64,000 bases of DNA, from contig JAVZMI010000001.1 of assembly GCA_038883335.1 (NCBI GenBank), positions 115,696 through 179,695 on the forward strand, given 5' to 3'. Below, piece by piece: positions 8,704 to 54,924 of the stretch. A program made the position numbers and the translations under genes. The notes under the pieces are model-generated. The model saw nothing but the letters and a program-made list of their open reading frames with translations, made no database searches and was not told where the DNA came from. The DNA is from Candidatus Bathyarchaeia archaeon (GTDB lineage Archaea; Thermoproteota; Bathyarchaeia; Hecatellales; Hecatellaceae). Positions within the stretch are counted from its first letter, which is position 1, and the number at the start of each line of letters is the position of its first letter.

Positions 8704-9648
8704 CTGGTCAATCAGGTCAGCTTCGAGATAAAAATCAAACAGCCTTTTAACCTAAATGAAACCATGCTGAGCGGCCAGACTAATGAGGCCATTTGGTGGA
8801 GGGACACGACTGGATTTAAAGATGTAGAGGTTTGGGCTGGTGTTCCTATAGTGATCGGCATCAACCAGAGGGGGCCAATTGACTGCCCTACCCTAGATGT
8901 ACACATTACCAGCGAGGCGCGTCTAAAAGAGGATGTTACCGGATATGCAACCAAGTATGTGATCTCACTTTTTCGTCTAGGAGATGACTTAGGATTGTTC
9001 TATCGTGAGTTCAGCTCAGATCCTATAGCTGTCTCCTTCGCAACTTTACGCGGACTTCGCCCTATGAAGGCTACAAACCTGTTTGAGAGCCTGATTTGTT
9101 CAATATGTTCACAGAATACTTCGGTTGAGAGGTGGAACTCGATGGTAAGGTTCCTAAAAAGAAGGTGGGGTTGCAAATTCAAGGTCGGCTGCGGTGAGTT
9201 CTATTCGTTTCCTGAACCCCACGTTTTAGCCAAAGCTGAGAAGGGGGAACTTATTATTGGTGGTCTGGGTTATAGGGCTGATTATATACGTGAGGCATCC
9301 CTTGCAGTTGAAAGTAGCCGCATAGACTTGGAGGCTCTACGTGGTGTTGATTACTCAAAAGCATATCATAGATTGTTAGGGCTGAGGGGAGTCGGCCCGA
9401 AGGTTGCGAACTGCTTCTGCCTCTACGGATTGGGTTTCACTATGGCTGCCCCCGTAGATAGGTGGGTGGAGCGTGCGGTTGCGGAACTTTATTTTAACGG
9501 TTGCACTCCCGGGAGGAGTGTGGTGTGTGAGTTTATTCGGCGGAGGTTTGGTGATTGGGCCGGGTATGCGCAATTGTATCTATTCCATCATTGGCGATCT
9601 AAACGTGGGATGAATTACGCAGACTGCGGTAGCTCCTTTTCTAGTTGA
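8704..9648 (+). CDS. 8-oxoguanine/AlkA-type DNA glycosylase (HhH-GPD), probable CTG start
   Basis: This is a base-excision-repair glycosylase of the OGG1/AlkA class. The helix-hairpin-helix LRGVGPKVANCFCLYG contains the lysine matching OGG1 Lys249, and APVDRW contains the catalytic aspartate (Asp268 in OGG1), so a bifunctional glycosylase/lyase is expected. The first ATG (8764) would remove the N-terminal strand FEIKIKQPFNLNETMLSGQ, which aligns with the PFNLxxTLxxGQ opening of the family. The frame is open back to a TGA at 8656 with no ATG, GTG or TTG. CTG 8704, 9 nt after GAGGG, is the best start. It ends overlapping the convergent kinase gene. Confidence 0.85.
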   Translation: MVNQVSFEIKIKQPFNLNETMLSGQTNEAIWWRDTTGFKDVEVWAGVPIVIGINQRGPIDCPTLDVHITSEARLKEDVTGYATKYVISLFRLGDDLGLFYREFSSDPIAVSFATLRGLRPMKATNLFESLICSICSQNTSVERWNSMVRFLKRRWGCKFKVGCGEFYSFPEPHVLAKAEKGELIIGGLGYRADYIREASLAVESSRIDLEALRGVDYSKAYHRLLGLRGVGPKVANCFCLYGLGFTMAAPVDRWVERAVAELYFNGCTPGRSVVCEFIRRRFGDWAGYAQLYLFHHWRSKRGMNYADCGSSFSS

Positions 9649-10573
9649 TAAATTTTCTCAAGCTAAGCTGTCTCGATCCTTCTTTGATTTTGAGAACATG
9701 ATCTACTAGTTCATCTGGGTGGTTGAAGTGTATATCTTTTATCGCGTCGAAGCCCCAGTCTAGACATTTAAGTGCTGAAACTATGCATGCTGTTACAACG
9801 GACTTTGTCCAGTCTTTAGTTAGGGCATATGAGGCGACGAGTGCACCGCACCATGTATCCCCTGCGCCTGTAGTGTCCCGTGGTTTCATAGTTATACCAC
9901 TGAGGGCAGGGATCAACTCGCTCCTACCATCTTCGGTTATTACAGCCCCCAGCTCACCTAGAGTTATGGCGATGCGTCTCCCTTTTATTCTGTGAGCGGC
10001 TGAGGATATGCTATGATCTTCCGCCAGTGCCATAGCTTCCTCCTCGTTTACAATGAAGAGGTCTACGTCATCTGCCAGATCTTTGAGGATTCGTCTATTC
10101 CTATGCGACTTCATATATTCTATACAGCTGTTAACGGAGATCCATGTGCTCGGTGAGATCTTCCTTATGCGCTCTACAAACTTCTGGACTTTTGGAGGGT
10201 GCATAGGGGAAAGGTGGACGTATTCATCTCCACAAAGCCAGCTTGGGGGAAGGTCTGCAACCCTGATCATTTTGCCCGATCCTAACTTAGAATCTAAATA
10301 GGTGGCTCTGAACTTTGCGTCATAAGTTATAGTGAATGATGTTGTAGGCAAGTTAACTCTCTTTATGAGGGAACTTGGTAGTGTTGAGTATATCTGGTGC
10401 ACATAGTTAAAGTCCTTTCCTACCGATGAGATAACTCTGACTTTGTTAGATAGCGTCTTGGCGCCCATGGCCGCGTAGAGGGCAGCTCCGCCTACCTGTG
10501 TACGCTCACCCCACATGTTTCGAATTCTATCTAGTGAGATGTGACCTATGAACAGTAAGTTTGGTGTTGACAT
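9641..10573 (-). CDS. PfkB/ribokinase family carbohydrate kinase
   Basis: A ribokinase-fold kinase of about 310 residues. The N-terminal glycine-rich substrate signature (around TQVGGAALYAAMGAKTL) and the C-terminal PfkB signature DTTGAGDTWCGALV with the catalytic Asp are both present. It phosphorylates a sugar or nucleoside using ATP in the cytoplasm. The exact substrate (ribose, inosine or another sugar) cannot be read from sequence. ATG 10573 is chosen over a TTG three codons upstream. It overlaps the convergent glycosylase gene by 8 nt. Confidence 0.87.
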   Translation of the reverse strand: MSTPNLLFIGHISLDRIRNMWGERTQVGGAALYAAMGAKTLSNKVRVISSVGKDFNYVHQIYSTLPSSLIKRVNLPTTSFTITYDAKFRATYLDSKLGSGKMIRVADLPPSWLCGDEYVHLSPMHPPKVQKFVERIRKISPSTWISVNSCIEYMKSHRNRRILKDLADDVDLFIVNEEEAMALAEDHSISSAAHRIKGRRIAITLGELGAVITEDGRSELIPALSGITMKPRDTTGAGDTWCGALVASYALTKDWTKSVVTACIVSALKCLDWGFDAIKDIHFNHPDELVDHVLKIKEGSRQLSLRKFIN

Positions 10574-10706
10574 CGAACTCAACCGTCGTATCCATGATCT
10601 TAGGAGCGACTAAAAAGGTTTAAAGCCGTCGTAGTTAGGCGGGCATCTGGATCTTACAGCGCGATGGTATAGCTACCCAATTAGATGGGGGAGAATTTCG
10701 CATCAT

Positions 10707-11054
10707 CTTTCAATTCCCTTTGTTGGGATTTTCGCTATGCATCCTTGCCAAAAAAATCACGCAAACATCTCATCACCGGTTTATCTTTCAATTCCCTTTG
10801 TTGGGATTTTCGCTATGCATCTACATGCGGCTTATTGTTCGTCAAAGCGAAAACCCAGCTTTCTTTCAATTCCCTTTGTTGGGATTTTCGCTATGCATCC
10901 TCACGGCTAACGGAGCCCTATAACTTGGACGTTCGCCAAACTTTCAATTCCCTTTGTTGGGATTTTCGCTATGCATCTAAACCCGAAGAGGCCCCGATTG
11001 AACTTATAAAAGCTAAACTTTCAATTCCCTTTGTTGGGATTTTCGCTATGCATC
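10707..11054 (-). CRISPR. CRISPR array, 5 repeats of 37 nt, 4 spacers
   Basis: Five identical 37-nt repeats lie at 10707-10743, 10785-10821, 10863-10899, 10941-10977 and 11018-11054. They are separated by unique spacers of 41, 41, 41 and 40 nt. On the reverse strand the repeat ends in ATTGAAAG, the usual 5' handle of archaeal type I/III crRNAs, so transcription should run right to left from the AT-rich side. The reverse-strand repeat can form a TCCC/GGGA stem with a 6-nt AACAAA loop. cas6 lies next to it; no adaptation or effector cas genes are in the window. Confidence 0.97.
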
Positions 11055-11337
11055 CCGACCTCAGACGCGGTTTATCCAGCAAAGATAACCCCAAGATGAG
11101 GGCAGCCGCGAAAGAGACACCGATTACCCTATAACCGCAAACCAACATATAAAGATAATCGAAAAACCAAAAAACCAGACTCAGTTTAATTCACTGCTCA
11201 AAGCTAAGCTTCAAAGCATATCTCTCCTCTAGGCTTTCAAAATTCACAAATGACGAGATAAAAAAAACATAAGCCACCCATCTTCCATTAGATGGAGAAT
11301 AGGCGAGAGGGGTGGATAATTTAACCGTGAAACTTAG
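11055..11337 (-). promoter_or_regulatory. Probable CRISPR leader and cas6 3' flank
   Basis: The side facing the 5' end of the predicted crRNA transcript is AT-rich between about 11140 and 11280. It contains a reverse-strand TATA-like ATCTTTATATG (about 11149-11159). The first 80 bases next to the outermost repeat are GC-richer and unlike a typical leader. They may include a former spacer whose outer repeat was lost, but no repeat remnant is visible. No gene is supported here. Confidence 0.45.
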
Positions 11338-12135
11338 CTAACTCCTAGACGCAAACTTGGTTACCCCAAACCCCCCCGTTCTATTTCCTCCCACATTTGC
11401 GTATTCTGCAAATCTCGCCAGCATGCATGTGATCTTGTTCCACCAGCTTTCCTTATCCTTCAACTCATATGTTACCCAACCAACAAACCCTACCGCCTTC
11501 TTCTGCTTCATAACTGCCAACCTAGTCCACAGTTCATATTCACTTACGCCCACATTCTTATTCAGCCACTCCTTGTAGGCTAGGTATTCCCCCCTACCAA
11601 ACCGCTTACAGTCACTAAACAAATTCCAAACCCGCATAAGCCCACAGAAAACCTTCACAGCGTCAGGAAACATCCAATGGAAACTGCTACCCAAACTGGC
11701 TAGATAGGTAGGTGTCCTAAAAACCAGACGGAGAGCGTCAGCTGCCGAAGCCTCCTTCTCTAACCCCTCATAACTCTTACAATTCACACTTATGGAGGCA
11801 ATCCTGAAAGACGTATCAAAAACTAACACGCTACCCTGCTTCTCAAAAAACCGAAGGAGGTAATTCGCATACTCGTCTTTTAAAAATCTGAAATGAACCC
11901 GGCAAGGGGCTAGATTATCCATGAGATAACCCTTATCACACCGCGCCTTACTCTTAAACTGTAAAGGTGCAACAGAGTAGGGCTTGGCAACATTCAACTC
12001 ATGCAGCAGCCCAGAAGCACTTGGATCCACCTGCCTCACAATATGCAACAATAAACCCCGCGCCACATGCCCCGTGAAAAACGGCAAAATAACCTCCTTC
12101 TCACCATAAATCTCCAAGCCAACCTCCACAGGCAT
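11338..12135 (-). CDS. cas6: CRISPR-associated endoribonuclease Cas6
   Basis: This 265-residue protein ends with the Cas6 glycine-rich loop ANVGGNRTGGFGVTKF, the hallmark of repeat-processing RAMP endonucleases. The N-terminal ferredoxin-like half includes a His in PFFTGHVARGLLLHIV. Cas6 cuts precursor CRISPR RNA inside each repeat to leave the 8-nt 5' handle. It lies beside the array in the same predicted transcription direction. No cas1, cas2, cas3 or cas10 is nearby, so it must serve effectors encoded elsewhere. Its 5' leader carries a repeat-like element over the ribosome-binding site. Confidence 0.9.
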   Translation of the reverse strand: MPVEVGLEIYGEKEVILPFFTGHVARGLLLHIVRQVDPSASGLLHELNVAKPYSVAPLQFKSKARCDKGYLMDNLAPCRVHFRFLKDEYANYLLRFFEKQGSVLVFDTSFRIASISVNCKSYEGLEKEASAADALRLVFRTPTYLASLGSSFHWMFPDAVKVFCGLMRVWNLFSDCKRFGRGEYLAYKEWLNKNVGVSEYELWTRLAVMKQKKAVGFVGWVTYELKDKESWWNKITCMLARFAEYANVGGNRTGGFGVTKFASRS

Positions 12136-12142
12136 GCCGAGT

Positions 12143-12175
12143 CAACTCCCCCTACTGGGATTCCCTCTAACACTC
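12143..12175 (-). repeat. Degenerate CRISPR-repeat-like element in the cas6 5' leader
   Basis: Ungapped alignment to the array repeat (from its CAATTCCC onward) gives 21 matches of 33, and 19 of 27 in the first part. More than half of the mismatches are transitions. On the transcript strand it keeps TCCC-(6 nt)-GGGA, the same stem and loop length as the crRNA repeat. The sequence GGGGGAG, the apparent cas6 ribosome-binding site (10 nt before ATG), lies within it. It could be a Cas6 binding site for autoregulation or an old solo repeat. Confidence 0.5.
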
Positions 12176-12382
12176 CCTAGTACTCTACACACAAATATCT
12201 ATTAGAACTACCGTAAATGTGACTCTGACTTTCCAAAACGCCACATCAAATATTTATTAGCTTCTGGTTTAAAGGTGCCTCAACCAGCACATTAAAAGTA
12301 CCTGAAGGCAACAGTGTCATCATAAACGTTAAACTGAAGCCACGATAACAAAATCTTTATCAAATCGAAGCAATGTCACCTA

Positions 12383-12403
12383 ACGTTAACATTAAGTTAA
12401 CGT
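12383..12403. promoter_or_regulatory. 8-bp inverted repeat upstream of rpl15e
   Basis: ACGTTAAC and GTTAACGT are separated by ATTAA, giving a perfect dyad about 40 nt before the L15e start. It could be a regulator operator overlapping the promoter or a small leader hairpin. The remaining 12176-12382 region shows no gene; the reverse-strand cas6 promoter (AATAGATATTT near 12195) lies there. Confidence 0.35.
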
Positions 12404-12440
12404 GAGGGCGACCTCGAAACTAAGGAGAAGGGCACGATAG

Positions 12441-12896
12441 ATGTACCGGCAAGTGGCCAAACTTTGGAAGAACCCTGAAAACACTGGGCTCGAAGAGGAA
12501 CTCCGACGTAGAGCAATACATTGGCGGAGAGGCCCGACTGTAGTTCGCGTCGAACATGCCCTCCGACCAAACCGCGCCCACGCTCTAGGTTACAGAGCAA
12601 AGCAGGGCTACGTCATCGTAAGAGTTCGAGTTAGAAGAGGAGGGCTAAGGAAGCAGAGGCCTAGAATGGGGAGGAGACCGAAGAGAATGGGCGTAGTCCG
12701 CTACACCCCTGCGAAGAGCCTCAAGGAGATCGCTGAGGGGAGGGTTGCTAAGAGATACCCCAACCTCAAGGTTCTTAACAGCTACTGGATATGGGAGGAT
12801 GGCAAATACAAATGGTACGAAGTAATTCTCGTAGATCCGCACCACCCCTCAATCAAGAGCGACCCGAAAATAAGCTGGATCGCCGCTAAGCCGTGA
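12441..12896 (+). CDS. rpl15e: Large-subunit ribosomal protein L15e
   Basis: Highly basic, 151 residues, with the L15e core: HALRPNRAHALGYRAKQGYV, RVRRGGLRKQRPRMGRR, YPNLKVLNSYWIWEDGKYKW and VILVDPHHPSIKSDP. It binds 23S rRNA in the large subunit. Many archaeal and eukaryotic L15e proteins run to about 185-200 residues with an RGLTSAG-type C-terminal tail; this one stops at SWIAAKP without that tail. The truncation looks natural because no tail sequence follows in other frames. It heads a run of RNA-biology genes on this strand (COG1325, Rpp30, Pop5). Confidence 0.95.
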   Translation: MYRQVAKLWKNPENTGLEEELRRRAIHWRRGPTVVRVEHALRPNRAHALGYRAKQGYVIVRVRVRRGGLRKQRPRMGRRPKRMGVVRYTPAKSLKEIAEGRVAKRYPNLKVLNSYWIWEDGKYKWYEVILVDPHHPSIKSDPKISWIAAKP

Positions 12897-12941
12897 CACT
12901 TATAGGGGGCCTCATTCTCGTACCCCCCAGACGTGAAGATC

Positions 12942-13403
12942 ATGCCTGTTCGCAGCCTGCCACTAGCCTTCATCGAAGTTAGGGCAATAAGCCACGCTAC
13001 AGAGAACCTTGAGAAAGTTATGACCGCTCTACAGAACGTAATATCTAGTGAGATTCTCGACGAGGTTCAAATCAGCCGAGAGCAGTTGGAAGGTCATTTC
13101 GGGAATCCAATAGTACTCATGAAGGCGAGAGTGAACAGAAAATCAGGAATAAGGAAAATGACTGAAGAACTTTTCAACAGGCTGCCACGGCAAGAACTTG
13201 AAAAATTATCCTCAGACCTAGAGCGGAGAATAGATGAAGATGGCAACTTCTACATTAGGCTTGATAAACAAGCGGCCTATCGAGGTGAAATAAGGCTCGG
13301 CGAATTCGATGTGATTCGTCTCCAATTCAAGTTCTCCCTCCCTAAAAGGCAACGGCAACAGGTGATAGAAGCCAGCCGGCAGCTAATCCTGCAGACAACT
13401 TAG
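12942..13403 (+). CDS. RNA-binding protein, COG1325 (exosome-subunit-like)
   Basis: About 153 residues, matching the small archaeal family annotated as exosome subunit or RNA-binding protein of the COG1325 type. The opening PLAFIEVRAISHATENLEKV and the central HFGNPIVLMKARV with ELFNRL are typical. The fold pairs a ferredoxin-like domain with conserved basic residues for RNA. The neighbourhood with rpl15e before it and RNase P protein genes after it is the usual archaeal arrangement. ATG 12942 is used; an in-frame GTG lies at 12933 and neither has a strong ribosome-binding site. Confidence 0.85.
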   Translation: MPVRSLPLAFIEVRAISHATENLEKVMTALQNVISSEILDEVQISREQLEGHFGNPIVLMKARVNRKSGIRKMTEELFNRLPRQELEKLSSDLERRIDEDGNFYIRLDKQAAYRGEIRLGEFDVIRLQFKFSLPKRQRQQVIEASRQLILQTT

Positions 13404-13416
13404 AGGGGGCTCCTGT

Positions 13417-14139
13417 CTGTCTGCCAAATATGTAGATTTACATGTCAAACCTTCCGTCTCAAATTTGGCGGAAGTAAATGAACTCTTCAGGTGGGCGGGG
13501 CAACTCGGGTATTGTACCATTGGTATATCTCTCCCTCCCTGTACTCCGGAGGGCATCGTAAACAGATTCCATGCTCTGGCCAGAGAGCACGGGCTGGAGC
13601 CGGTGTCTCGAGTAGACCTGAAACCAGAAACGCCAAACGAATTACTCCAATCTCTGAGACGGCTGAGGCGAAAGTATGTGGTGGTGGCGGTAGAGTGTCG
13701 TACAAAACAGGTTGCACGTCAGGCTGCGAAAGACCATCGTGTAGACATCTTAAATTTTCCTTTCACGTACGAAAGGAGCTGGTTCGATATGGCTGAGGCG
13801 GAATTGGCTTCTTCATCTAACGCCAACCTAGAGATTAATATAGTCGAGATTCTGCAAGCTGATAATACAGGCTTACTCAAGATTTTTACCGAGTTGCGGA
13901 GACGCCTAACCATCGCTGAAAAGAGTAGAATAGGCATAGTAGTCTCCAGTGGGGCTGAGTCAGCTATAAACCTCAGAGGACCCCGAGATCTCATAGCCTT
14001 CATCAATCTCTTCGGCTTGAGCCTAGAGAGTTCAAAGGCAGCAGTCTCAAGCTACCCATTGGAGATCATCAAGAGGAATAAGGAGAAGCTCAGTCAATCC
14101 TTAGAGTTAGGAGTTAAACTTGTTAATGTGGGGTTGTAG
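13417..14139 (+). CDS. rnp3: RNase P protein component 3 (Rpp30), probable CTG start
   Basis: A TIM-barrel-like RNase P subunit that works with Pop5 to activate the catalytic RNA in tRNA 5' maturation. Family landmarks include LAEVNELFRWAGQLGYCTIG, a strand ending HRVDILNFPF and the glycine/aspartate loops of the barrel. The first legal start, TTG 13465, would delete YVDLHVKPS, the conserved first strand with its Asp. That stretch is open in frame back to a TAA at 13384 with no ATG, GTG or TTG. CTG 13417 lies 7 nt after AGAGGGGG (13402-13409), which overlaps the stop of the previous gene. Confidence 0.88.
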   Translation: MSAKYVDLHVKPSVSNLAEVNELFRWAGQLGYCTIGISLPPCTPEGIVNRFHALAREHGLEPVSRVDLKPETPNELLQSLRRLRRKYVVVAVECRTKQVARQAAKDHRVDILNFPFTYERSWFDMAEAELASSSNANLEINIVEILQADNTGLLKIFTELRRRLTIAEKSRIGIVVSSGAESAINLRGPRDLIAFINLFGLSLESSKAAVSSYPLEIIKRNKEKLSQSLELGVKLVNVGL

Positions 14140-14140
14140 G

Positions 14141-14500
14141 ATGGTCAAGACTACTAGGAAGAGGTATATCCTATTCCAAACATACCCTGAAAGTAGCAGA
14201 TTCACCACATGTAAAGTTCACAGAGCAGTTCAGAATAGTCTCTTACGCCTCTTCGGAGTCTATGGCCTTAGCCAAGTTAACCTCGCTTTACCCGTACACA
14301 GCGAGAATAAGTGTTTCGGCGTGTTGAGGTGCTCCCACAAACATGTGGGGCTAGTGAAAGCTGCCCTAGTCTTTATTAGAGAGATAGAGGGTAAACCAGT
14401 TGCCTTCCGAGTTATAAGAACATCAGGTACATTAAAATCCCTGATGGAGAAGCTCAAAGGCTCAACATCTTATCCGCTGGAGGCTACCAGCATACTCTGA
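14141..14500 (+). CDS. rnp2: RNase P protein component 2 (Pop5)
   Basis: About 119 residues. The family pattern starts with KRYILFQTYPES and continues with AVQNSLLRLFGVYGLSQVN, VLRCSHKHVGLVKAALVFI and VIRTSGTLKSL. Pop5 pairs with Rpp30 as a heterotetramer bound to the catalytic domain of RNase P RNA. The rnpB gene is also in this window (35992-36307). ATG 14141 starts immediately after the Rpp30 stop, implying translational coupling. An upstream in-frame ATG (14120) inside rnp3 is less likely. Confidence 0.92.
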   Translation: MVKTTRKRYILFQTYPESSRFTTCKVHRAVQNSLLRLFGVYGLSQVNLALPVHSENKCFGVLRCSHKHVGLVKAALVFIREIEGKPVAFRVIRTSGTLKSLMEKLKGSTSYPLEATSIL

Positions 14501-14561
14501 AGATTACTCAATTCTACGGTAACCATAACTGAGATTGCTTCGTCAACAATTCAGGAAGAGG

Positions 14562-14622
14562 TCAGATCGTCGCGTGGTCTTCATGACGCCTTTAGGCGTT
14601 CAGGCTGGGACGACGTCATCAT
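14562..14622 (-). ncRNA. Probable C/D box sRNA (rRNA/tRNA 2'-O-methylation guide)
   Basis: On the reverse strand a perfect C box ATGATGA (14622-14616) is followed after exactly 12 nt by a D' box CTGA (14603-14600). A C'-like GTCATGA (one mismatch) comes 12 nt later, and a D box CTGA lies at 14565-14562. The 12-nt C-to-D' spacing is diagnostic of archaeal guide RNAs. The D'-C' interval forms a small CGCC/GGCG hairpin. The terminal stem is weak. Targets were not determined. It lies in the gap between pop5 and rpiA, downstream of rpiA on its strand. Confidence 0.5.
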
Positions 14623-14680
14623 GCAGGGTTTGAAAGGATAACGTTCCATATTTACTTTTTGTGTATAAACCACCACACGT

Positions 14681-15376
14681 CTACGATTTCACTAACTTTT
14701 CGACGCTTCCATCCTTCTTCCCTACGTAGACCATATCCGCCATGCCTACAAAGAGCCCTGACTCAATCACTCCCGGTATCTTTTTAAATCTCTCCTCAAG
14801 CTCCTTCGGTCTTTTTATAAACCCGCAGTCTGCGTCAACTATAAAGTTTCCATTATCACTCACCACCGGGCCAGCCTTACCAACTCCCTCCCTCAACTTT
14901 AGAGTGTTGCAAAATTTTTTTAGTTCTTCAAAAACTGGTGCCCTAGCGAAAGGCAATATTTCTAGTGGGATTGGGTGGTTCAATCCAAGCGTCTCCACGA
15001 GTTTAGTCTCATCTGCAACTATGATATATTCTTTAGCAACGGAACCGACGATCTTCTCTCTGGTTAGAGCCGCGCCTCCACCTTTAATCAGATTTAAACT
15101 CTCGTCAATCTGGTCAGCCCCGTCTATGGCCAAATCTAACCTGGGGTGCTCATCTAAGGTTGTTATAGGTATGCGTTCTTGTATGGCTAAGAAGAATGCC
15201 TGATATGATGTTGGCACGCATAAAACCCTGATGCCCTCCTCCCTGATTCTCCTACCTATCTCGCGGATCGCATACTGCGCAGTAGTACCGGTGCCCAAAC
15301 CTAGAACGTAGCCGTCCCTTACGTGCTTTACAGCCTCCTCAGCCGCTCTCCTCTTGGCTTCCTCTAGCCAACTCAA
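14681..15376 (-). CDS. rpiA: Ribose-5-phosphate isomerase A
   Basis: 231 residues, the standard RpiA length. GLGTGTTAQYAIREIG forms the phosphate-binding loop, DLAIDGADQIDESLNLIKGG is the catalytic Asp/Gly region, and TREKIVGSVAKEYIIVADETK matches the family. It interconverts ribose 5-phosphate and ribulose 5-phosphate for nucleotide synthesis and the reversed RuMP route used in many archaea. It is transcribed after the coiled-coil protein gene, 8 nt away, probably as one operon. Confidence 0.96.
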   Translation of the reverse strand: MSWLEEAKRRAAEEAVKHVRDGYVLGLGTGTTAQYAIREIGRRIREEGIRVLCVPTSYQAFFLAIQERIPITTLDEHPRLDLAIDGADQIDESLNLIKGGGAALTREKIVGSVAKEYIIVADETKLVETLGLNHPIPLEILPFARAPVFEELKKFCNTLKLREGVGKAGPVVSDNGNFIVDADCGFIKRPKELEERFKKIPGVIESGLFVGMADMVYVGKKDGSVEKLVKS

Positions 15377-15384
15377 ACTGAAAG

Positions 15385-15993
15385 TTAGACCTCCATCTCA
15401 ATCTGTTCAAGCTTTTCAAGCTGTTTCTGGAGATCCTGTCTCAACTTCTCCAGCGTCTCGTCAGCCTTGGTCTTTCTCGGCGTTGGGGGGGTCTTCTCAG
15501 CTACTTTAGGTTTCTCCTCCTTATCTGGAACCGGGGTTGAGGCAGGTTTGATCTCGGCCACACTTTTGGTGATAGATTGGGTGATACCTAAGTCTCGTCT
15601 TATGTCTTCTATCTTCGCATTTAGTTCGGCGATCTTGTCTTGGAACATTTTTAATAGCTCAGCACGGCTTTCCTCAAGTTCATATAGTCCTATCACCCTT
15701 TGGCTATGATTCATCGTCAACTCTAACTTTGTTATGATCTCTTTGTATTTTGCAGCAAGCCGGTCTCTCTCCTCTTCCGTTATTTTACCTTCCGCCGCGG
15801 CCTCGTAGAGGCGTGTGAGGGCATCTCCTATGATTTCTCTCTCGACGCTGGAGATTCTAAATTCACTCTTGAACTTGTCAAGCTCTTCAGGTTTAATGGT
15901 TCTCTCAATCTTAGGGTAGGGAATTGACGAAACTTGCGGGGGCGTCGGAGCCTCTTTATCCGCCTCCTTCTTTTTCCTCCCCCAAAAAGGCAT
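15385..15993 (-). CDS. Coiled-coil protein of unknown function
   Basis: About 202 residues beginning MPFWGRKKKE, followed by a Pro-rich stretch. Helical heptad segments follow (about residues 35-130), then a Pro/Lys/Glu-rich linker, and a final coiled coil ending LRQDLQKQLEKLEQIEMEV. No catalytic motif, membrane segment or signal peptide is seen. The general layout (helical core, Pro-rich linker, C-terminal helix) recalls cytoskeletal or ESCRT-adaptor proteins, but there is no recognisable family signature. ATG 15993 is chosen over a TTG three codons upstream. It is co-oriented with rpiA. Confidence 0.75.
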   Translation of the reverse strand: MPFWGRKKKEADKEAPTPPQVSSIPYPKIERTIKPEELDKFKSEFRISSVEREIIGDALTRLYEAAAEGKITEEERDRLAAKYKEIITKLELTMNHSQRVIGLYELEESRAELLKMFQDKIAELNAKIEDIRRDLGITQSITKSVAEIKPASTPVPDKEEKPKVAEKTPPTPRKTKADETLEKLRQDLQKQLEKLEQIEMEV

Positions 15994-16123
15994 ATTAATC
16001 AATCCATAGCGTCTAGCTAGATAAATGTAAGCTTATTCAAGATTTAAAATTTAAACTATTCTGCTATCCTAAAGGTTGCGTGGCCAATTTAATGTAGAAG
16101 ACAGACGCAAATTGTGGTAATAA

Positions 16124-34621: not shown

Positions 34622-35151
34622 GCCACACATCTTTAGAACATAAACATGAGGCGCCCCGTTCCTTAACCTTCGCTGTAGTTACTATTAGCACCTCAAAGTA
34701 TGAGCGGAGTAGGAGAGGTTTCGAGGTCGATGACCTCTCAGGTGATCTGATAGTTAAATTCCTCGAAGGGGCAGGTCACAGGATATCGTCACGTTTCTTG
34801 ATCCCAGACGATCCTGAGAAGATAGCAGCCACGATTGAAAAGATCATCGAGAATGAGCAAATCAACGCAATAGTCACCACCGGAGGCACCGGCATCGCTA
34901 GAAGTGATGTTACTATTGAAGTCGTCAGGAGACTACTGGAGAAGGAGCTTCAAGGCTTCGGCGAGGCTCTCAGGAGGATCAGTTACGAGAGGATAGGATC
35001 AGCTGCTATCCTCACGAGGGCTATAGCCGGCGTGAAGAGAGGCAAAGCTATCTTCTGCCTTCCAGGCTCCCCTAACGCCGTGGAAACAGCTCTCCATAAC
35101 TTAATCATCCCAGAGGCCCCCCACATCGTAAAACATGCGATGGAGGCCTAA
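34618..35151 (+). CDS. moaB: Molybdenum cofactor biosynthesis protein MoaB/MogA family
   Basis: 177 residues. VTTGGTGIARSDVTIEVVRR is the molybdopterin-binding core (TTGGTG), with the early D of EVDDLSGDLI and the late FCLPGSPNAVETAL. It adenylylates molybdopterin before metal insertion. It is translationally coupled to moaC and runs into truA, whose start overlaps or follows its stop. Together they suggest the cell uses Mo or W enzymes. Confidence 0.92.
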   Translation: MSHTSLEHKHEAPRSLTFAVVTISTSKYERSRRGFEVDDLSGDLIVKFLEGAGHRISSRFLIPDDPEKIAATIEKIIENEQINAIVTTGGTGIARSDVTIEVVRRLLEKELQGFGEALRRISYERIGSAAILTRAIAGVKRGKAIFCLPGSPNAVETALHNLIIPEAPHIVKHAMEA

Positions 35152-35156
35152 CATCC

Positions 35157-35960
35157 ACGCCTCGTTACGCTGTTAGATTTTACTATGATGGCAGAAGCTA
35201 TCACGGTTTCCAGTCTCAGCGATCTGAGCGAACCGTGGCCTCGGAGATACTTAAAGCCCTTAAACAGTCGAAACTAGTTACAGATCCTAGCGCAGCTAGG
35301 TTTCAAGCTGCCTCTAGAACAGATAGAGGAGTCAGCGCCCTCGCACAGACTGTAGCCTTCAGTACCAAGGAACAGTTCTCAACGCCCCGTATCAATGCCT
35401 TCCTCCCCCTGGACATAACGGCGTGGGCTTCAGCCAAGGTTCCAGATGGCTTCAACCCGAGGAAGAGGGCGGAGAGTAGAGAATACGTTTATCTCCATTA
35501 CTACCGGGGTGAAGACTTGGATGAGATGACAACAGCAGCTAAACTATTAACTGGGAGGCATGACTTCCGAAACTTCACCCTTGGTATGGCGCCCTGCCTG
35601 CGAACAATTGATGAGTTCACAGTGAATAGGGAGGGAAGCTTCATCCTCTTCCGGGTCTCGGCGAAGGGGTTCGCTCGTGGAATGGTAAGGAGGTTAGTAG
35701 CTGCCTTGATCGAGGTTGGGCAGGGTAGGAGCAATATCGAGTTGCTAGGCCAACTTTTAGACCCCGCTTACAAGCCCAAAAAAGTTACTAAACCAGCGCC
35801 AGCCGAGAACCTTATACTTTTCGACGTAAAATACAGTGGCATAAACTTTATGGTGGAAAGGAAGTCGCTCAGTAGGCTTATAAGGTGGCTGGTAGGCGGA
35901 TTTACTGCTGGGAGGCTAAAGGGTCTCTGCCTAGAGAGGTTGGGCGGGAGCTATCTCTAA
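35157..35960 (+). CDS. truA: tRNA pseudouridine synthase TruA, probable ACG start
   Basis: About 268 residues. The catalytic motif ASRTDRGVSA with its Asp and the C-terminal FARGMVRRLVAALIEVGQGR match TruA, which isomerises U38-U40 in tRNA anticodon arms. The first legal start (GTG 35235) would delete the first strand RYAVRFYYDGRSYHGFQ, which contains the family YDGxxYxGFQ motif. The frame is open to a TAA at 35097 with no ATG, GTG, TTG or CTG. The only codon one base from ATG is ACG 35157, 10 nt after GGAGG. Confidence 0.88.
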   Translation, partial: TPRYAVRFYYDGRSYHGFQSQRSERTVASEILKALKQSKLVTDPSAARFQAASRTDRGVSALAQTVAFSTKEQFSTPRINAFLPLDITAWASAKVPDGFNPRKRAESREYVYLHYYRGEDLDEMTTAAKLLTGRHDFRNFTLGMAPCLRTIDEFTVNREGSFILFRVSAKGFARGMVRRLVAALIEVGQGRSNIELLGQLLDPAYKPKKVTKPAPAENLILFDVKYSGINFMVERKSLSRLIRWLVGGFTAGRLKGLCLERLGGSYL

Positions 35961-41503: not shown

Positions 41504-41595
41504 AGCGGGGTGGGGTAGCCAGGCTTAACCCGCGGGGCTCATAAGCTCTCTGAGAAACCCCGAGATCTATGGTTCAAATCCATACCCCGCTACCA
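41504..41595 (+). tRNA. Initiator tRNA-Met (CAU) with 13-nt intron, CCA encoded
   Basis: Acceptor AGCGGGG pairs with CCCCGCU, giving the A1-U72 end typical of archaeal initiators. The discriminator A and CCA are encoded. The anticodon stem is CGGGG/CCCCG, supplying the three G-C pairs of initiators. The T-arm is TATGG-TTCAAAT-CCATA. Between A37 (41543) and A38 (41557) lies a 13-nt insert, 41544-41556, at the canonical 37/38 intron site; its CTC/GAG can pair for the splicing motif. Confidence 0.92.
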
Positions 41596-45183: not shown

Positions 45184-45190
45184 TAAAAAA

Positions 45191-46907: not shown

Positions 46908-46908
46908 A

Positions 46909-47130: not shown

Positions 47131-47304
47131 ACACATATAAACAAATTAGTTATGGAGTGTAACTCCGCGGAAGCCTCACTTAACCTAAAATAATCATAGC
47201 ATGAAAAGTCTCTGAAGCCACATATATAACGGTCTCAACAGGGCTACCGGTTTCCAATTTTTGGACAGGTTCAGGCTTCCTCGTAGTTGAAGAGGTAGAT
47301 GCCT

Positions 47305-48786: not shown

Positions 48787-48956
48787 GGGCGCATATACAC
48801 TATTGCGGAAACTAGGACAATGATAGTTATCAACACCCAGAAGAGGTATGCCCCATAAAAACTTTGAACATCCTTAAGTAGCAAGTAGGGAACTGCAAAG
48901 TCTATGACGACGAAGAACGTGAACCATATGAGCCAGCCAATTTTCCTACCCTTCAT
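48762..48956 (-). CDS. Small two-helix membrane protein paired with symporter
   Basis: 64 residues with two hydrophobic helices (WLIWFTFFVVIDFAVPYLLL and YGAYLFWVLITIIVLVSAI) and basic ends. Small proteins of this shape (DUF997/DUF3311 style) are commonly encoded immediately before SSS-family symporters. The 25-nt overlap with the symporter supports translational coupling and joint function. The gene starts at ATG 48956. Confidence 0.75.
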   Translation of the reverse strand: MKGRKIGWLIWFTFFVVIDFAVPYLLLKDVQSFYGAYLFWVLITIIVLVSAIVYMRPWKDVKSL

Positions 48957-49070
48957 ATAACTACACGCCTAATGTCTCTGTCAAACGACTGATCAAATTG
49001 CAGAATCATACGCCTTTTGATGTTTAAAAAAGTTTGTAAGAAATTCTTCGTAGGGCTGCCTTCGGCTAGC

Positions 49071-49313
49071 TTAGACTACCTGCTGCCCCCTCGGCCTCTT
49101 CTTGAGTTCAAAAGGGACGTTTACCACGCGGATTGCGTTTTGGGAAGAGACTATATATACCGGGTTTCCTAGGGGGTCATGCTGGTTTGTACGGAGAACG
49201 CCGAGAAGGATCGGTTTCACTTTCAATGTTGCTCCATCTTTAAGTTTATACTCACTCCACTCCTCTTTCACAATCTCAAAGTCAACCTCATCTCCTTCAT
49301 GCACATAGGACAT
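49071..49313 (-). CDS. Small conserved hypothetical protein
   Basis: 80 residues, hydrophilic and beta-rich (VHEGDEVDFEIVKEEWSEYK, LKDGATLKVKPILLGVLRT, NAIRVVNVPFELKKRPRG). No cysteines, membrane helix or catalytic motif. The strand pattern suggests a small OB- or SH3-like barrel. No clear relatives are recognised. ATG at 49313 has AGGTTTGT upstream. It is isolated between the symporter pair and an accessory region. Confidence 0.65.
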   Translation of the reverse strand: MSYVHEGDEVDFEIVKEEWSEYKLKDGATLKVKPILLGVLRTNQHDPLGNPVYIVSSQNAIRVVNVPFELKKRPRGQQVV

Positions 49314-49569
49314 AACGACAAACCTCCATACTATACTGAACTTTATCTAATCCAAGGTATCAAAGTTTCTCTCTCCATCACTAGGTTAAACCAGTTTCTA
49401 GTGTGCGAAATTTTGGACAGCTCATGTGGTCTCCAATTTTTAGAAGCTAGCAGATAATTATATGCAACTTGGTTCACCTTCGCGTTACTCTTTTATAGCT
49501 GATATTTAGTAAAATTTTACTTAAGAAAATCTTAAAGAAAATGTAAAGAAAATTGGAAAGTGATTTTCT

Positions 49570-49812
49570 ATGAAAGAAGCTCTGGCCAGCTACAAGGTTA
49601 CCGAGAAGCAGACCAAGACTGGACGGGCATATATCTCGCCTAGGATATACCTGCCCACGAAACTGGTTAGCGACTCCAGCTTCCCATTTAAAGATCCAAG
49701 CCTTAGGGTCCATGTAAAGATAAAGGGGAAGCAACTTATAATCCAGAAAGCTACAAGCCGCCACCTCAAAAAATTCGGCGAGCTGACCGAGGAGCCAGAA
49801 GCCGGAGGTTAA
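49570..49812 (+). CDS. Small hypothetical protein
   Basis: 80 residues, very basic (SYKVTEKQTKTGRAYISPRI, then VKIKGKQLIIQKATSRHLKK). A mix of strands with a possible swapped-hairpin (AbrB-like) appearance, but no definite family. The upstream region is extremely AT-rich (49495-49569), typical of an archaeal promoter, with TTAAGAAAATC stretches. ATG start. It may be a transcription factor or part of the accessory region. Confidence 0.55.
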   Translation: MKEALASYKVTEKQTKTGRAYISPRIYLPTKLVSDSSFPFKDPSLRVHVKIKGKQLIIQKATSRHLKKFGELTEEPEAGG

Positions 49813-50241
49813 AGGAGACCCCTCCAGTCGTGGTTCCATAGAGCCTACACCAGTAATTCGGCGAGAAATGAGAATGTGCGGCTGATAAACCGTGAACCTC
49901 GTCGAGGCTATGACAATCCTAGCCCTCTCATCTTAAATGGTATTACCCGCTCATACACGTTCATACAGGTTTTTCAGCCCCGATCAACCTTTGAGGCGGC
50001 TGAACCTGACATCTTCGAGGCCCTCAAGGTCTCCCTTCACCCGATACCGCGCGCCTCTGACAATCGCTCCACTGCGCTTTAAAACTCAGATCTCGAACGC
50101 CCCCCAAAGTCAAAAATTTACCCCCAAGTTCGGTTGAAGAGACAAGATCTCTTTGAGAAACTCGAAATGTAGAAAATTTTTTGAAGGTAAAAAACCGTAA
50201 ATCTCGTATTAGAAAACTTAGAACCTAATGAGGAGGGAAAA
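49813..50241. other. Gene-poor region without supported gene
   Basis: These about 430 bases carry two overlapping short forward frames (49876 and 49937) that lack ribosome-binding sites, and an antisense frame over the preceding gene. The first 290 bases look GC-richer than the following AT-rich 140 bases, which serve as the promoter region for the next gene. It may be a decayed gene or untranslated RNA; no known RNA signature was found. Confidence 0.35.
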
Positions 50242-50592
50242 ATGAACTCTGTTCAGAAGAAGGGGCCGCAAGCCCAGCCAACAGCTGGAGGGGTGTCAGA
50301 GAAAACCTCCCAAGTGAATTCTAAACCGAAAAGAGTTCTTATCTGGGAAGAACTGAGTAATGAGGAAAAGCTGAAGAGTTTGTGCGACGCGATTGATGGC
50401 TTGAATAACAGATTTGATGAGTTCCAGAAGCGAGCGAACGCGTGGAGTAATGTAGTGGCGAAGGACATAAACAACATCTATTCCCTAATAAACTACAACG
50501 CTGAGCGAGCTAACGCATGGAGTAAGGAAGTGGACGAGAAGATAAACAAAATTATTTTTCAGCTTGCAGCCCGTGGCATATTTATATTTTAA
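50242..50592 (+). CDS. Coiled-coil hypothetical protein with internal repeat
   Basis: 116 residues, start ATG behind GAGGAGGG. The N-terminal 30 residues are polar and disordered (Q, P, G, S, K). Residues about 55-105 contain a repeated unit: RANAWSNVVAKDINNI and RANAWSKEVDEKINKI, 28 residues apart, indicating an antiparallel helical hairpin or coiled coil. A short hydrophobic tail GIFIF ends the protein. The function is unknown. Confidence 0.6.
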   Translation: MNSVQKKGPQAQPTAGGVSEKTSQVNSKPKRVLIWEELSNEEKLKSLCDAIDGLNNRFDEFQKRANAWSNVVAKDINNIYSLINYNAERANAWSKEVDEKINKIIFQLAARGIFIF

Positions 50593-50731
50593 CGAAGGTT
50601 TACTATGAGGGCTCATTTATATCAATAAAACTCGAGGTTTTCAAAGCTGAAATACGCAGAGGTATGCATTAAGCTCTTCGGGCAATTAGTTTTAAATAAC
50701 GAAAGCCACTTGAAAGTTAAGTGGGGAGAAG

Positions 50732-51143
50732 ATGAAAACATCTAAGGTAATTTTAAATGTGCTTATGGTGATTATGGGATTTGCTATATGGTTCTCTATC
50801 TATATGGCATATGAAAGTGGTGAGCTAGTAGTGGTGGGGGGAAGTGCTGTGGATATGGCGCTACTCGGGTTTGTTTTGGGTATACGGTCTCATCCGCGGT
50901 CTCACCCAGAAGAAAGCTGCTCCGCAATCCGTCACTCCTGAGACAGTTAAACCGCCAGCGGCACCCCACAGTCCAATAAAGGTTTCTTTCATACTAACGG
51001 ACTCGGAGCAGGAAGTACTGAATTATATTACCAAGCACGGCGGGAGGATCTCCCTCTCACAGGCGAGTGAGGAATTGGGGCTAAGCGTGGCTAGGTTGAA
51101 GGAGACAATCAATTCATTGAAAGAGAAAAATTATTTAGAATAA
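50732..51143 (+). pseudogene. Frameshifted membrane-anchored winged-helix protein
   Basis: An ATG at 50732 (GGGGAG upstream) opens a frame with an N-terminal membrane segment (VILNVLMVIMGFAIWFSIYM) and a second hydrophobic stretch to GFVLG. The frame then runs into low-complexity sequence and stops at 50941. Skipping one base at 50882 joins it to the other frame, giving YGLIRGLTQKK, a Pro-rich linker and a C-terminal winged helix (EQEVLNYITKHGGRISLSQA, LGLSVARLKETINSLKEK) ending at 51143. It is most likely one gene with a single-base change, a sequencing error or a real inactivation; a programmed shift is possible. Confidence 0.6.
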
Positions 51144-51284
51144 CCTGGAACCTTAGCCTATATTCCACACATCACACAACTCTCTTTAGGAGTTCTTCAT
51201 GGTTGTCATAATGCCCTTTGACCAGTTCATAGATCTTGTTCTAAAGGCAAAACAGTAATTTTCGCATATCATTGGAGGGTCATC

Positions 51285-51446
51285 ATGGAGTTCGCGGTGT
51301 CTCTGATCTTCTCCCAACATGCGATCCTCGACTATAGGTATATTATTAACTATCCTATCTTTGAGGAGAAAGATGTTTTCGCAGTCGCACAGCTTTATCG
51401 GGCCAGTTCTCCTTTTGGGATCTCTTTCACTCTCTCGCGCCAGTAG
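51285..51446 (+). CDS. Possible small protein (53 aa)
   Basis: A 53-codon frame, ATG 51285 to TAG 51446, is preceded by GGAGGG with 6-nt spacing, the best ribosome-binding site in this stretch. The product is hydrophobic at both ends and has no recognised family. It overlaps the convergent winged-helix gene by 52 nt, which argues against it. Kept as a low-confidence call. Confidence 0.3.
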   Translation: MEFAVSLIFSQHAILDYRYIINYPIFEEKDVFAVAQLYRASSPFGISFTLSRQ

Positions 51447-51823
51447 TTAGCTATCATCTCGAGACGATTAGAAAATGTCTCACTGAGTTGGGCTGGCTCG
51501 TTGCGTCTAGTCCTTACTAGGAGACCGCTATTCAGTAGGGCTTTCCAAGTCTGTGAGAGGGTAGTTGCACTGCAGTGCTCCCTCCGACATATCTCGTTTG
51601 AGATGGAAGTAAGCTCCATTCGACGGGTCTTCCTCCGGCTCATCTCACGAAGAAGAACTTCTGCAAGTTTAGCTTTTCTTGGGTTGTACGGGAAGAGCAA
51701 ACCACAAAATATGGCAAGGTCACCTATGCTAGTTCGATCTTCCTCTACTTTGACCGTCACGTAACCATGTCTCCTAATGTAGTCTGCCATATATTCCTTG
51801 TCCTTTACAGTTCTGAACATCAT
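51395..51823 (-). CDS. Winged-helix-like DNA-binding protein, apparently self-regulated
   Basis: 142 residues, strongly basic. The middle (ELTSISNEICRREHCSATTL, SQTWKALLNSGLLVRTRRNE) fits a winged helix with recognition helix and wing. The N-terminal part (YMADYIRRHGYVTVKVEEDR) may be a dimerisation unit. No effector domain is seen. A 15-bp inverted repeat surrounds its promoter, so it probably represses itself. The start is ATG 51823 or 51820. It may control the neighbouring unknown genes. Confidence 0.65.
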   Translation of the reverse strand: MMFRTVKDKEYMADYIRRHGYVTVKVEEDRTSIGDLAIFCGLLFPYNPRKAKLAEVLLREMSRRKTRRMELTSISNEICRREHCSATTLSQTWKALLNSGLLVRTRRNEPAQLSETFSNRLEMIANYWRERVKEIPKGELAR

Positions 51824-51828
51824 CCCAC

Positions 51829-51893
51829 CTCAATTACACCATATGGTATATGGTAGGTTATTTAATCCTCTACCACACTATGGTGTAATTGAG
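51829..51893. promoter_or_regulatory. Operator: 15-bp inverted repeat flanking a TATA box
   Basis: CTCAATTACACCATA (51829-51843) and TATGGTGTAATTGAG (51879-51893) are perfect complements separated by 35 nt. Between them lies a reverse-strand TATA-like GGATTAAATAACC (51857-51869). A third partial copy, AATTACACCAT, is at 51951-51961. The arrangement suggests binding of a dimeric regulator at two sites over the promoter of the 51823 gene. Confidence 0.65.
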
Positions 51894-51961
51894 CCGACCC
51901 CACCGCACGCCATCAAGCTTGATTAGTGCAAAAATATGGGAGGTCCGATGAATTACACCAT

Positions 51962-52373
51962 TCCATGTAATAATGACGTATGGTGGGCTGCTGAAGTTCG
52001 GCATACGAAAAATTGGAGAGGTGATATTGGGTTCAAAAAATCGAAGTCTGCTGAAACTCGTGGTTGTAGCCAGTTGCATCAATATTACATATACAACTGA
52101 TGCCACCAAGTTACTAAACAAAGCATCACTTAACTATGGAAATCTGGGCTTAATTACCAGGGGGTAAAAAGGCTTCAACACCACAGAAAACATACATAAG
52201 CCTGCATGACAGACGATTTTATTTAGACTTTTACCTGTGAGAAGCTTCTGTTATACAACGTTTGCAGTCGCAAAGCGATGAAAATATGCTATGAACTGAA
52301 TCCTATCGACCATTTGTTTTGACTGGAAAACTAGACCGAAACATATCACCTGATCCACTATACCTGCGCTGCA
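51962..52373. other. Intergenic region with no supported gene
   Basis: A forward frame 51973-52167 (64 codons) and a reverse frame 51870-52121 exist, but both lack ribosome-binding sites and recognisable sequence. The third operator-like copy at 51951 directly precedes the forward frame, which leaves open a small regulated transcript. The rest is AT-rich with no RNA signature seen. Confidence 0.3.
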
Positions 52374-52976
52374 TTAGTCCGTCATCGCGACTTTCTGATG
52401 GTTTATAATAGGGCTCTCACTAACTACGGTTCGCCGATATTCCCGCTCCGCGTTTGGTTGGCGTTGAGAATCAGCTTGCTCCCAAGGCACATAAATCAAA
52501 GCTACCACGACACTTCCATAACGTCCCTTTGGAACCTCTAGACACTCGAGCTTACACTCGATGGAAGTTATCTGTAGCTGCCTGATCTTAGCCATCTCTT
52601 GCAATTTCCACTTAAGCTCTCTCTCAATAGCCTCCCTATCTTTGTATCCATGCGCTTCGGCGACTAGCCCATATTTCTGTCCGTCAAGTGTGACGCCCCA
52701 TGCCCATCCAAGCCCAGCCCCTATGGTCTCACCTGGGTCTCCGTCCATTCTGGCTAGAACTGAGAATGTTACGGTGCCTGGGGTTATCTCGCAGTTCTTG
52801 ATAAATTCAGCGTCGGCAGGAAGGATAGATGAGACGCATACAAGGTTACATTGCGCTATTCCAGCCTTCATAAGGGCTGCGTCAAAGGCGTTCAGAGCTG
52901 AGGTGGGGCTGTTGGCTGATCCGCTTGTTACAAAGAACTTCTTAGGCAGGAAGATCCCGTGCGTGGGTTGCCCCAA
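52374..52976 (-). CDS. pdaD: Pyruvoyl-dependent arginine decarboxylase
   Basis: 200 residues, start TTG 52976. PKKFFVTSGSANSPTSALNA opens the family. NLVCVSSILPADAEFIKNCE contains the Ser-Ser self-cleavage site that creates the pyruvoyl group. Downstream, ARMDGDPGETIGAGLGWAWG and GLVAEAHGYKDREAIERELK match. It makes agmatine, used for polyamines and by TiaS (38778-40139). The C-terminus is about 35 residues longer than the M. jannaschii enzyme. Monocistronic. Confidence 0.93.
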   Translation of the reverse strand: MGQPTHGIFLPKKFFVTSGSANSPTSALNAFDAALMKAGIAQCNLVCVSSILPADAEFIKNCEITPGTVTFSVLARMDGDPGETIGAGLGWAWGVTLDGQKYGLVAEAHGYKDREAIERELKWKLQEMAKIRQLQITSIECKLECLEVPKGRYGSVVVALIYVPWEQADSQRQPNAEREYRRTVVSESPIINHQKVAMTD

Positions 52977-53196
52977 TCTTTATCTTTTTGCCTCCAGTGT
53001 AGTTATACAGAATCTAAGAAGTCTAAATTTCGTTATTAAAGCTTTTCCCTACAAAAAATACGTTCATCACGGTAAGCTTTCAGAAATTGATACGCTACAC
53101 GGGTCAATCGTGGAGCCGTAGATTGTTATTAACATATACCTATAAATTTCAACTCTGCCAGCTCTAGAGACCCGTAACTCGGACTAAAGAACAATT

Positions 53197-53766
53197 TTAC
53201 CAAGGCTCATTCTTTTTCCCAATCTTGAACGCTACATAGTTACTCAGGAGGTGTATGAAGGGTGTTATTGTAACCACAACCACGACCGTGAGCCACGTGA
53301 CCTCGCCACCTACAGACACCAGCCGAGTGAATGCCCAAGCAAATACCAACGCAGCTACAACAAAGTCAAGCTGGTCAAGACCCGGTGCAGAGGCGCCCCG
53401 TGGAAGGTTTAGTCTTCTCTTTATGAATGCTCCAGTCAAATCACCCGAGATCGCTCCTACAGAGATTACAAAACCGAACAGTGCGTGAAGCAGGTTAAGA
53501 GAAAATGAGAAGAACTGGGACATAAACAGGTTCACCACGGCAATCTCGCCGAGAGATGCGAGAGTGCCGCAGAGTATACCTCCTAAAGTGCCGTTGACAG
53601 TCTTCCCGTCTCCCAGAATCCTTCGCCCATCAATGAAAACTTTCCCGCCGTCGAGGGGTCTGCCGCCGCCAAGTATAGGGCCCATACCGTTTGCCATGTA
53701 GGCTGGTACTAATATCAGTGACGTGAAAAGGATGAAGTCAGGGTTTGTAAGCTCTTCTAACGTCAT
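53197..53766 (-). CDS. carS: CDP-archaeol synthase CarS
   Basis: 189 residues with five or six membrane helices. The family signature is VPAYMANGMGPILGGGRPLD followed by GGKVFIDGRRILGDGKTVNG, and LGGILCGTL. It activates archaetidic acid with CTP to CDP-archaeol at the membrane, the branch point for polar archaeal lipids. The ino1 gene is 78 nt upstream on the same strand, so inositol headgroup supply is co-located. Confidence 0.95.
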   Translation of the reverse strand: MTLEELTNPDFILFTSLILVPAYMANGMGPILGGGRPLDGGKVFIDGRRILGDGKTVNGTLGGILCGTLASLGEIAVVNLFMSQFFSFSLNLLHALFGFVISVGAISGDLTGAFIKRRLNLPRGASAPGLDQLDFVVAALVFAWAFTRLVSVGGEVTWLTVVVVVTITPFIHLLSNYVAFKIGKKNEPW

Positions 53767-53844
53767 GAATCCCTCTACTACGGTGGTCTCAAGTGTAAAA
53801 CTCTCCAGTTTATTGGAGACAGAGTCAACCCACCTTATAACTAG

Positions 53845-54924
53845 TCAGGACTCTCTTATGCCTTGAATATACTCCTCAACCCAACGTCGAGCCGTGTCTT
53901 CATCTGTTTGGATGGGTGGATGCTTGAATGCGTAGGCTGAAATACTGAGTAGAGGTCCAGAGATCCCTCTATCCAAAGCTACCTTCACAGCACGTATTAG
54001 GTCGATGGCCACCCCAGCGCTGTTTGGTGAGTCTTCGACTGAAAGCTTTACATCGATTTTTATAGGTCGGTCGCCGAATTTTCTACCCTTCAAGTGGATG
54101 TAACATATCTTCGCATCGCCTAGGAATGGAACATAGTCAGAAGGCCCTATCCGCGTTGGAATCTTGTATGGTAGGAGCGAAGTTACTGCCTCAGTCTTGC
54201 TTACTCGCTTAGATGAAAGCCGCTCCTCCACAGTCATGTTCAAGAAGTCAGTATCGCCTCCGAGGTTAAGCTGGTAGGTCTCGTCTATCTTTACACCTCT
54301 GTCAATCATGAGCTTCGTTAAGACGCGATGGAGTATAGTGGCACCTACTTGACTCTTAATATCGTCGCCGGCAACTGGAAGCCGAGCCTCCTTAAACTTC
54401 CTAGCCCAAACTGAGTCGGACGCTATAAACTCCGGGATGCAGTTTACAAATGCGCACCCCGCTTTGAGGCAGGCATCAGCGTAGAACTTTGTGGCTTCGT
54501 TACTGCCGACGGGTATATAGTTCAGCAGCATCTCAGCGCCACTCTCCTCCAGAGTTTTGGCGACATCTGGGGCATTTATCTTACTCCTATCGTAGACTTT
54601 GAAGGGCTCCTCCATGTGAGGCGCTACACTATCGAGTATAGGCGCTGGCAGTACTTCCACACCGAGAGGCTGGACCTCAGCGAACTTGGCACATACGTTC
54701 GGCTCTATGAAGATTGCTTCCGCCACATCCTTGCCTATTTTCAGTCTGTTAACATCAAAGGCTGCGACAACTTTGACGTCTCTAATACGGTAGCCTGCGA
54801 AGACTGTGTGCATCAACCCTGGGACGCAGTCCTCATCTTTCACATTTCTGTAATATTGGAGTCCCTGAATTAACGCTGAGGCGCAGTTTCCAAGCCCTGC
54901 TATGGCGACTCGGATCTGTGAGAT
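53845..54924 (-). CDS. ino1: Myo-inositol-1-phosphate synthase, probable ATC start
   Basis: About 359 residues. Motifs include VGSNEATKFYADACLKAGC, FIASDSVWARKFKEARLPVA, GDDIKSQVGATILHRVL and GGDTDFLNM. It makes inositol-1-phosphate from glucose-6-phosphate with NAD+, feeding archaetidylinositol. The first legal start (GTG 54843) would remove the Rossmann NAD loop VAIAGLGNCASALIQGL. The frame is open to a TGA at 54931-54933. The only AUG-like codons are two ATC; ATC 54924 is 7 nt from GAGGTG. It is in an operon with carS. Confidence 0.88.
   Translation of the reverse strand: MSQIRVAIAGLGNCASALIQGLQYYRNVKDEDCVPGLMHTVFAGYRIRDVKVVAAFDVNRLKIGKDVAEAIFIEPNVCAKFAEVQPLGVEVLPAPILDSVAPHMEEPFKVYDRSKINAPDVAKTLEESGAEMLLNYIPVGSNEATKFYADACLKAGCAFVNCIPEFIASDSVWARKFKEARLPVAGDDIKSQVGATILHRVLTKLMIDRGVKIDETYQLNLGGDTDFLNMTVEERLSSKRVSKTEAVTSLLPYKIPTRIGPSDYVPFLGDAKICYIHLKGRKFGDRPIKIDVKLSVEDSPNSAGVAIDLIRAVKVALDRGISGPLLSISAYAFKHPPIQTDEDTARRWVEEYIQGIRES

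Follow-up and report, generated by a model that had tools for sequence, protein, structure and literature searches.

Apparent near-cognate start codons in four conserved genes of a Bathyarchaeia genome and their recurrence in related assemblies

Four conserved genes in a 64,000-nucleotide stretch of the genome of a Candidatus Bathyarchaeia archaeon (assembly GCA_038883335.1, contig JAVZMI010000001.1, positions 115,696 to 179,695; hereafter the window, and its source genome G000) have no ATG, GTG or TTG codon ahead of their conserved N-terminal sequence and appear instead to begin at a codon one base away from AUG. They encode an OGG-like DNA glycosylase, the RNase P subunit Rpp30, the tRNA pseudouridine synthase TruA and the myo-inositol-1-phosphate synthase Ino1 (Table 1). 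Given the alignments to orthologs, the placement of Shine-Dalgarno (SD) sequences and the recurrence of such starts elsewhere in the class, we consider it very probable that these are genuine near-cognate starts, used by the normal methionine initiator tRNA with the assistance of SD pairing. We infer from sequence both that initiation takes place at these codons with insertion of methionine and why the lineage would tolerate it. G000 is a draft of 1.22 Mb, 98.9% complete, and all the relatives searched lie outside its genus.

An earlier note, made from the letters of the window alone, had singled out these genes and their four codons. The open reading frames (ORFs) and translations bear it out on both counts: the ordinary start is absent from all four sites, the codons stand where the note had placed them, and the first ordinary codons sit 16-27 codons downstream of them, so that no ordinary in-frame start is found near the N-terminus. 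The N-terminal alignment that the note had called for shows that the sequence ahead of the first ordinary start is homologous to relatives in all four genes. The proposed codon coincides exactly with ortholog starts in TruA and Ino1, and lies within one codon of them in Rpp30 and in the OGG-like gene, the latter at low identity. In TruA (open frame 35100-35960(+), first ordinary start codon at 35235), the same codon position is occupied by TTG in G001, a sister genome of the same family, and by ATG in G003 and G010. In Ino1 (open frame 53845-54930(-)), the ATC aligns with the initiator methionine of 6/6 aligned orthologs, which have ATG or TTG there, and the first ordinary codon, GTG 54843, lies beyond the Rossmann GLGNCAS motif. 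Further Ino1 loci were read automatically, apart from about 12 whose motif did not match and a few whose longer N-termini were left unplaced; in the loci so read, the ordinary start was nearly always no more than about two codons from the aligned position. Most of the closest Ino1 loci in a named collection belong to Candidatus Bathyarchaeota. For Rpp30 (open frame 13387-14139(+)), the first ordinary start, TTG 13465, comes after the conserved KYVDLHV stretch, and the G001 gene starts at a TTG one codon away from CTG 13417. The OGG-like gene (open frame 8659-9648(+), first ATG, GTG or TTG at 8764) is the weakest of the four cases, because its homolog in G003, whose ATG falls within one codon of the proposed start, shares only about 32% identity with it.

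Table 1. Proposed near-cognate starts, their putative SD sequences and related features. Coordinates are those of the window unless a locus is named.
Feature	Position	Strand	Details
SD GAGG of OGG-like gene	8690..8693	+	4-nt match, aligned offset 16
OGG-like HhH-GPD DNA glycosylase	8704..9648	+	proposed start CTG 8704-8706; Pfam HhH-GPD E=3.4e-9
SD GAGG of Rpp30	13403..13406	+	overlaps TAG of the upstream gene; 4-nt match, aligned offset 16
RNase P subunit Rpp30	13417..14139	+	proposed start CTG 13417-13419; Pfam RNase_P_p30 E=2.7e-31
SD GGAGG of TruA	35142..35146	+	5-nt match, aligned offset 16
tRNA pseudouridine synthase TruA	35157..35960	+	proposed start ACG 35157-35159; Pfam PseudoU_synth_1 E=2.5e-26
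Initiator-type tRNA, anticodon CAU, with intron	41504..41595	+	ARAGORN; only copy found in G000
Myo-inositol-1-phosphate synthase Ino1	53845..54924	-	proposed start ATC 54924-54922; Pfam Inos-1-P_synth E=1.9e-32
SD GAGGTGA of Ino1	54931..54937	-	contains the upstream in-frame stop TGA; 7-nt match, aligned offset 15
MobB-like gene	L017:444 and L018:278 onward	+	apparent ATC start, G002/G004
Nucleotidyltransferase-like gene	L186 ~2574 and L208 ~2078 onward	+	apparent CTG start, shared by two assemblies

The 3' end of the 16S rRNA of G000 (GATCACCTCCT) carries a normal anti-SD sequence, and in 304 conserved G000 genes with a homology-supported ordinary start the aligned offsets of the SD peak at 13-16. 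At this usual spacing we found an SD match ahead of each of the four codons, as the earlier note had claimed of its ribosome-binding sites, whereas the downstream ordinary codons of the same genes have matches of just 2-3 nt. The latter bears on the possibility that translation begins at the downstream ATG, GTG or TTG and that the conserved upstream residues are dispensable. Although such codons exist in all four genes, the upstream protein sequence is conserved, scoring 44-112 in the alignments of Rpp30, Ino1 and TruA, and truncation of Ino1 would remove its NAD-binding motif; we therefore regard a downstream start as quite improbable.

To look beyond the window, as the earlier note had suggested, stop-to-stop frames were compared between genomes in search of conserved N-termini upstream of the first ATG, GTG or TTG, using sampled stretches of about 0.85 Mb of G000, about 0.8 Mb of G001 and 0.4 Mb from each of two genomes of the same class, G010 and G012. 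Candidates were inspected by hand, with judgement calls included, and the gene names outside the window are our own reading of the sequences, only the four window genes being named otherwise. Near-cognate starts recur on this curated list: about 16 in G000, counting the four window genes and mostly CTG, about 10 in G001, 3-4 in G010 and 1-2 in G012. The CTG cases of G000 include ArgS, Rpp30, OGG, an MFS gene and an aIF2-alpha-like gene among others; ACG is represented by TruA, a RimK-like and a glycerol-1-phosphate-dehydrogenase-like gene, ATC by Ino1 and a PAC2-like gene, and ATA by a single membrane pyrophosphatase-like gene. The G001 cases include AtpD-like, aconitase-like and HisS-like genes with CTG, an RpiA-like gene with ATT and a NuoM-like gene with ACG, and those of G010 include TatD-like and DUF763-like genes and ArgS, all three with CTG. 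ArgS thus appears to begin with CTG in G000 as well as in G010, and relatives of the G000 gene carry GTG or ATG at the same codon; conversely, G000 has an ordinary TTG exactly where the AtpD-like gene of G001 has its CTG. In G010, the apparent CTG start of ArgS (L317, minus strand) directly follows a TAG stop. One candidate, a diphthine-ammonia-ligase-like gene (C1_1_-_85039) with TTA as its start, was dropped for its poor SD spacing.

Looser flaggings, whether unfiltered or locus-based, were overwhelmed by shadow ORFs on the antisense strand and by the conserved flanks of close relatives, and were replaced by two stricter tests. The first was blind to the codon: in start-less genes whose homolog starts no more than three codons away, an in-frame codon was chosen by SD placement alone, and it proved to be CTG, ACG, ATT, ATC or ATA in 17/27 genes against a background of 8.2% (p=1.3e-12). 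The second, a strict screen, asked that the homolog start be ordinary and SD-supported and that no ordinary start lie nearby; CTG occurred 15 times in it, versus 0.66 occurrences per codon outside the near-cognate set. Two further near-cognate starts are shared between assemblies (Table 1). The ATC of the MobB-like nucleotide-binding gene is common to G002 and G004, two species of one genus at about 67% identity, and the CTG of the nucleotidyltransferase-like gene is found at L186, counted as Bathyarchaeial on the similarity of its Ino1, and at L208.

Several observations weigh against genuine near-cognate initiation or its restriction to the lineage. The strict screen also returned AAG three times and AGG four times at SD positions. 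SD strength seems to favor the curated cases (at least 4 nt in 11/11, versus about 62%), a comparison biased by a list that was partly picked by eye with the SD in view. The controls from outside the class, described below, are small. Lastly, relatives use ordinary starts for all four window genes, so that conservation does not extend to the four near-cognate codons themselves. Together with the state of the assembly, a draft of 18 contigs, this last point speaks for sequencing or assembly errors that wiped out ordinary start codons. Yet for about 16 of some 320 genes to have lost their start, the error rate would have to be about 2% per base, enough to break over half of all genes, and only 1/399 conserved G000 genes (369 kb) is split. 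Errors would also scatter over codons, whereas the observed starts concentrate on CTG; the even spread of damage over genes and codons that marks errors was not seen, and the MobB-like and nucleotidyltransferase-like starts recur in separately assembled species. Because of the single split gene and the starts conserved across species, we think errors very unlikely to be the explanation, in line with the earlier note, which had judged four assembly errors at start codons implausible. That note had also named a finding that would tell against it, sister genomes with an ordinary start combined with a one-base error here: the sisters' ordinary starts do exist at the four genes, but the required error rate is excluded by gene intactness and by the two other starts conserved between species.

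Cytidine-to-uridine editing of the mRNA before translation would turn CUG into UUG and ACG into AUG, and thereby make ordinary starts of the two commonest classes. It would change ATC only to ATT, which is still no ordinary start, and the ATT starts of G001 and the ATA start of G000 have no C to edit; to our knowledge no mRNA editing of this kind is known in archaea, and we give this explanation very little credence. Least probable of all, in our view, is that translation begins at an ordinary start further upstream and reaches the gene by stop-codon readthrough or programmed frameshifting. Ino1 does have an in-frame GTG TTG AGG TGA just upstream, and ARAGORN, with introns allowed, listed a possible tRNA with a CUA anticodon (Pyl-like) in the G000 stretches, probably a false positive. 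Against this, the TGA of Ino1 belongs to its SD, the four genes are preceded in frame by the stops TGA, TAA, TAA and TGA and never by TAG, and the near-cognate codon is where homology to the relatives' starts sets in.

Taken as near-cognate starts, these codons raise the question of how far the habit extends. That it is common to at least part of the Bathyarchaeia is supported by its apparent recurrence across G000, in the sister G001 and in other members of the class, another family among them, and the relaxed start-codon choice that the earlier note had suggested for the lineage gains support in the same way. The strict screen could be applied to about 970 genes of Bathyarchaeia and singled out about 19 distinct cases there, with none in the controls (0/78 genes of other Thermoproteota, 0/~106 of other genomes and 0/139 of rhizobial plasmids). 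The last set served as bacterial control and entered the strict test only, since the looser flag was dominated there by GC-rich shadow ORFs. If rates were equal, we calculate from the counts a chance of about 0.004 for such a split. The excess over the controls is nonetheless modest and suggestive rather than conclusive, because the control sets are small and do not include the closest archaeal genomes. Near-cognate starts might thus be real and yet equally frequent across archaea, where they would have been overlooked, since gene callers do not search for such codons; NCBI translation table 11 itself lists CTG, ATT, ATC and ATA as possible starts, and rates vary within the class, with few cases in G012. 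This rival concerns lineage specificity and not near-cognate initiation as such; in view of the 0/~320 control genes, and of the ArgS loci outside Bathyarchaeia with a judgeable start, none of which has a near-cognate one, we hold it to be unlikely, if deserving of attention. A bolder reading, to our mind only somewhat less likely than not, is that Bathyarchaeia or families within the class evolved a genuinely relaxed start-codon check, in which aIF1 or other initiation factors may have had a part, with CUG as a regular fourth start and ACG and AUH as tolerated minor ones in several percent of the proteome.

Starts other than ATG, GTG and TTG are known from bacteria as rarities, such as the ATT of E. 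coli infC and pcnB. These resemble the present cases in that an SD places initiation one base off AUG with a normal initiator tRNA, but they concern a handful of genes, some autoregulated, whereas here several percent of conserved genes would be involved, mostly with CTG and including ACG. Eukaryotic initiation at CUG, ACG and AUH shares the codon classes, with CUG commonest, and differs in that it relies on scanning and mostly serves upstream or alternative ORFs, whereas here main genes would have no start other than the near-cognate codon, which stands beside an SD. Nor does table 11 (ATG, GTG, TTG, CTG, ATT, ATC and ATA) cover the set: CTG and ATC are listed, and the ACG of TruA and others is not. 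We found no report of near-cognate starts in Bathyarchaeia in the open-access literature; such starts being known already, the novelty would lie in how often the conserved genes of an archaeal class use them, with CTG predominating and ACG among them. Gene callers such as Prodigal allow only ATG, GTG and TTG and would therefore truncate these proteins. If the starts are genuine, a few percent of the conserved proteins of Bathyarchaeia, ArgS, Ino1, TruA and Rpp30 among them, have been given the wrong N-terminus by automatic annotation in a lineage familiar chiefly from assembled genomes, and the class would offer natural systems for studying the evolution of start-codon fidelity, and of the factor that controls it, in initiation machinery of the archaeal/eukaryotic type.

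As to mechanism, SD pairing may position the small ribosomal subunit at the near-cognate codon, where the ordinary methionine initiator tRNA (anticodon CAU) would accept a one-base mismatch, mostly in CUG and also in ACG and AUH. An altered initiator anticodon was not seen, the sole initiator-like tRNA found, in a search that did not survey the whole tRNA set, carrying CAU. CTG would then be a fourth, rarer NTG start, one transition from TTG, and it looks like one because only 45% of the ordinary starts in the 304 genes above are ATG, with 32% TTG and 23% GTG. Translational coupling cannot be a requirement, since a same-strand gene of at least 90 codons ending just upstream is present for Rpp30 and TruA and absent for OGG and Ino1. 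In Sulfolobus, according to a published review (PMC8211752, with reference to Hasenohrl 2006 and 2009), non-canonical starts are discriminated against with the help of aIF1. G000 also has an aIF1, close to solved archaeal ones; one of its loop residues is Asn rather than Gly, which we regard only as a lead. This Gly-to-Asn change does not track the rate of near-cognate starts: G010 has Gly yet shows cases. Asn occupies this position of the RKW-G-K/R loop in all sampled aIF1 of family f1 (L063 of G000; L057, L059-L062 and L064), and Gly does so in other sampled Bathyarchaeia and in solved archaeal aIF1.

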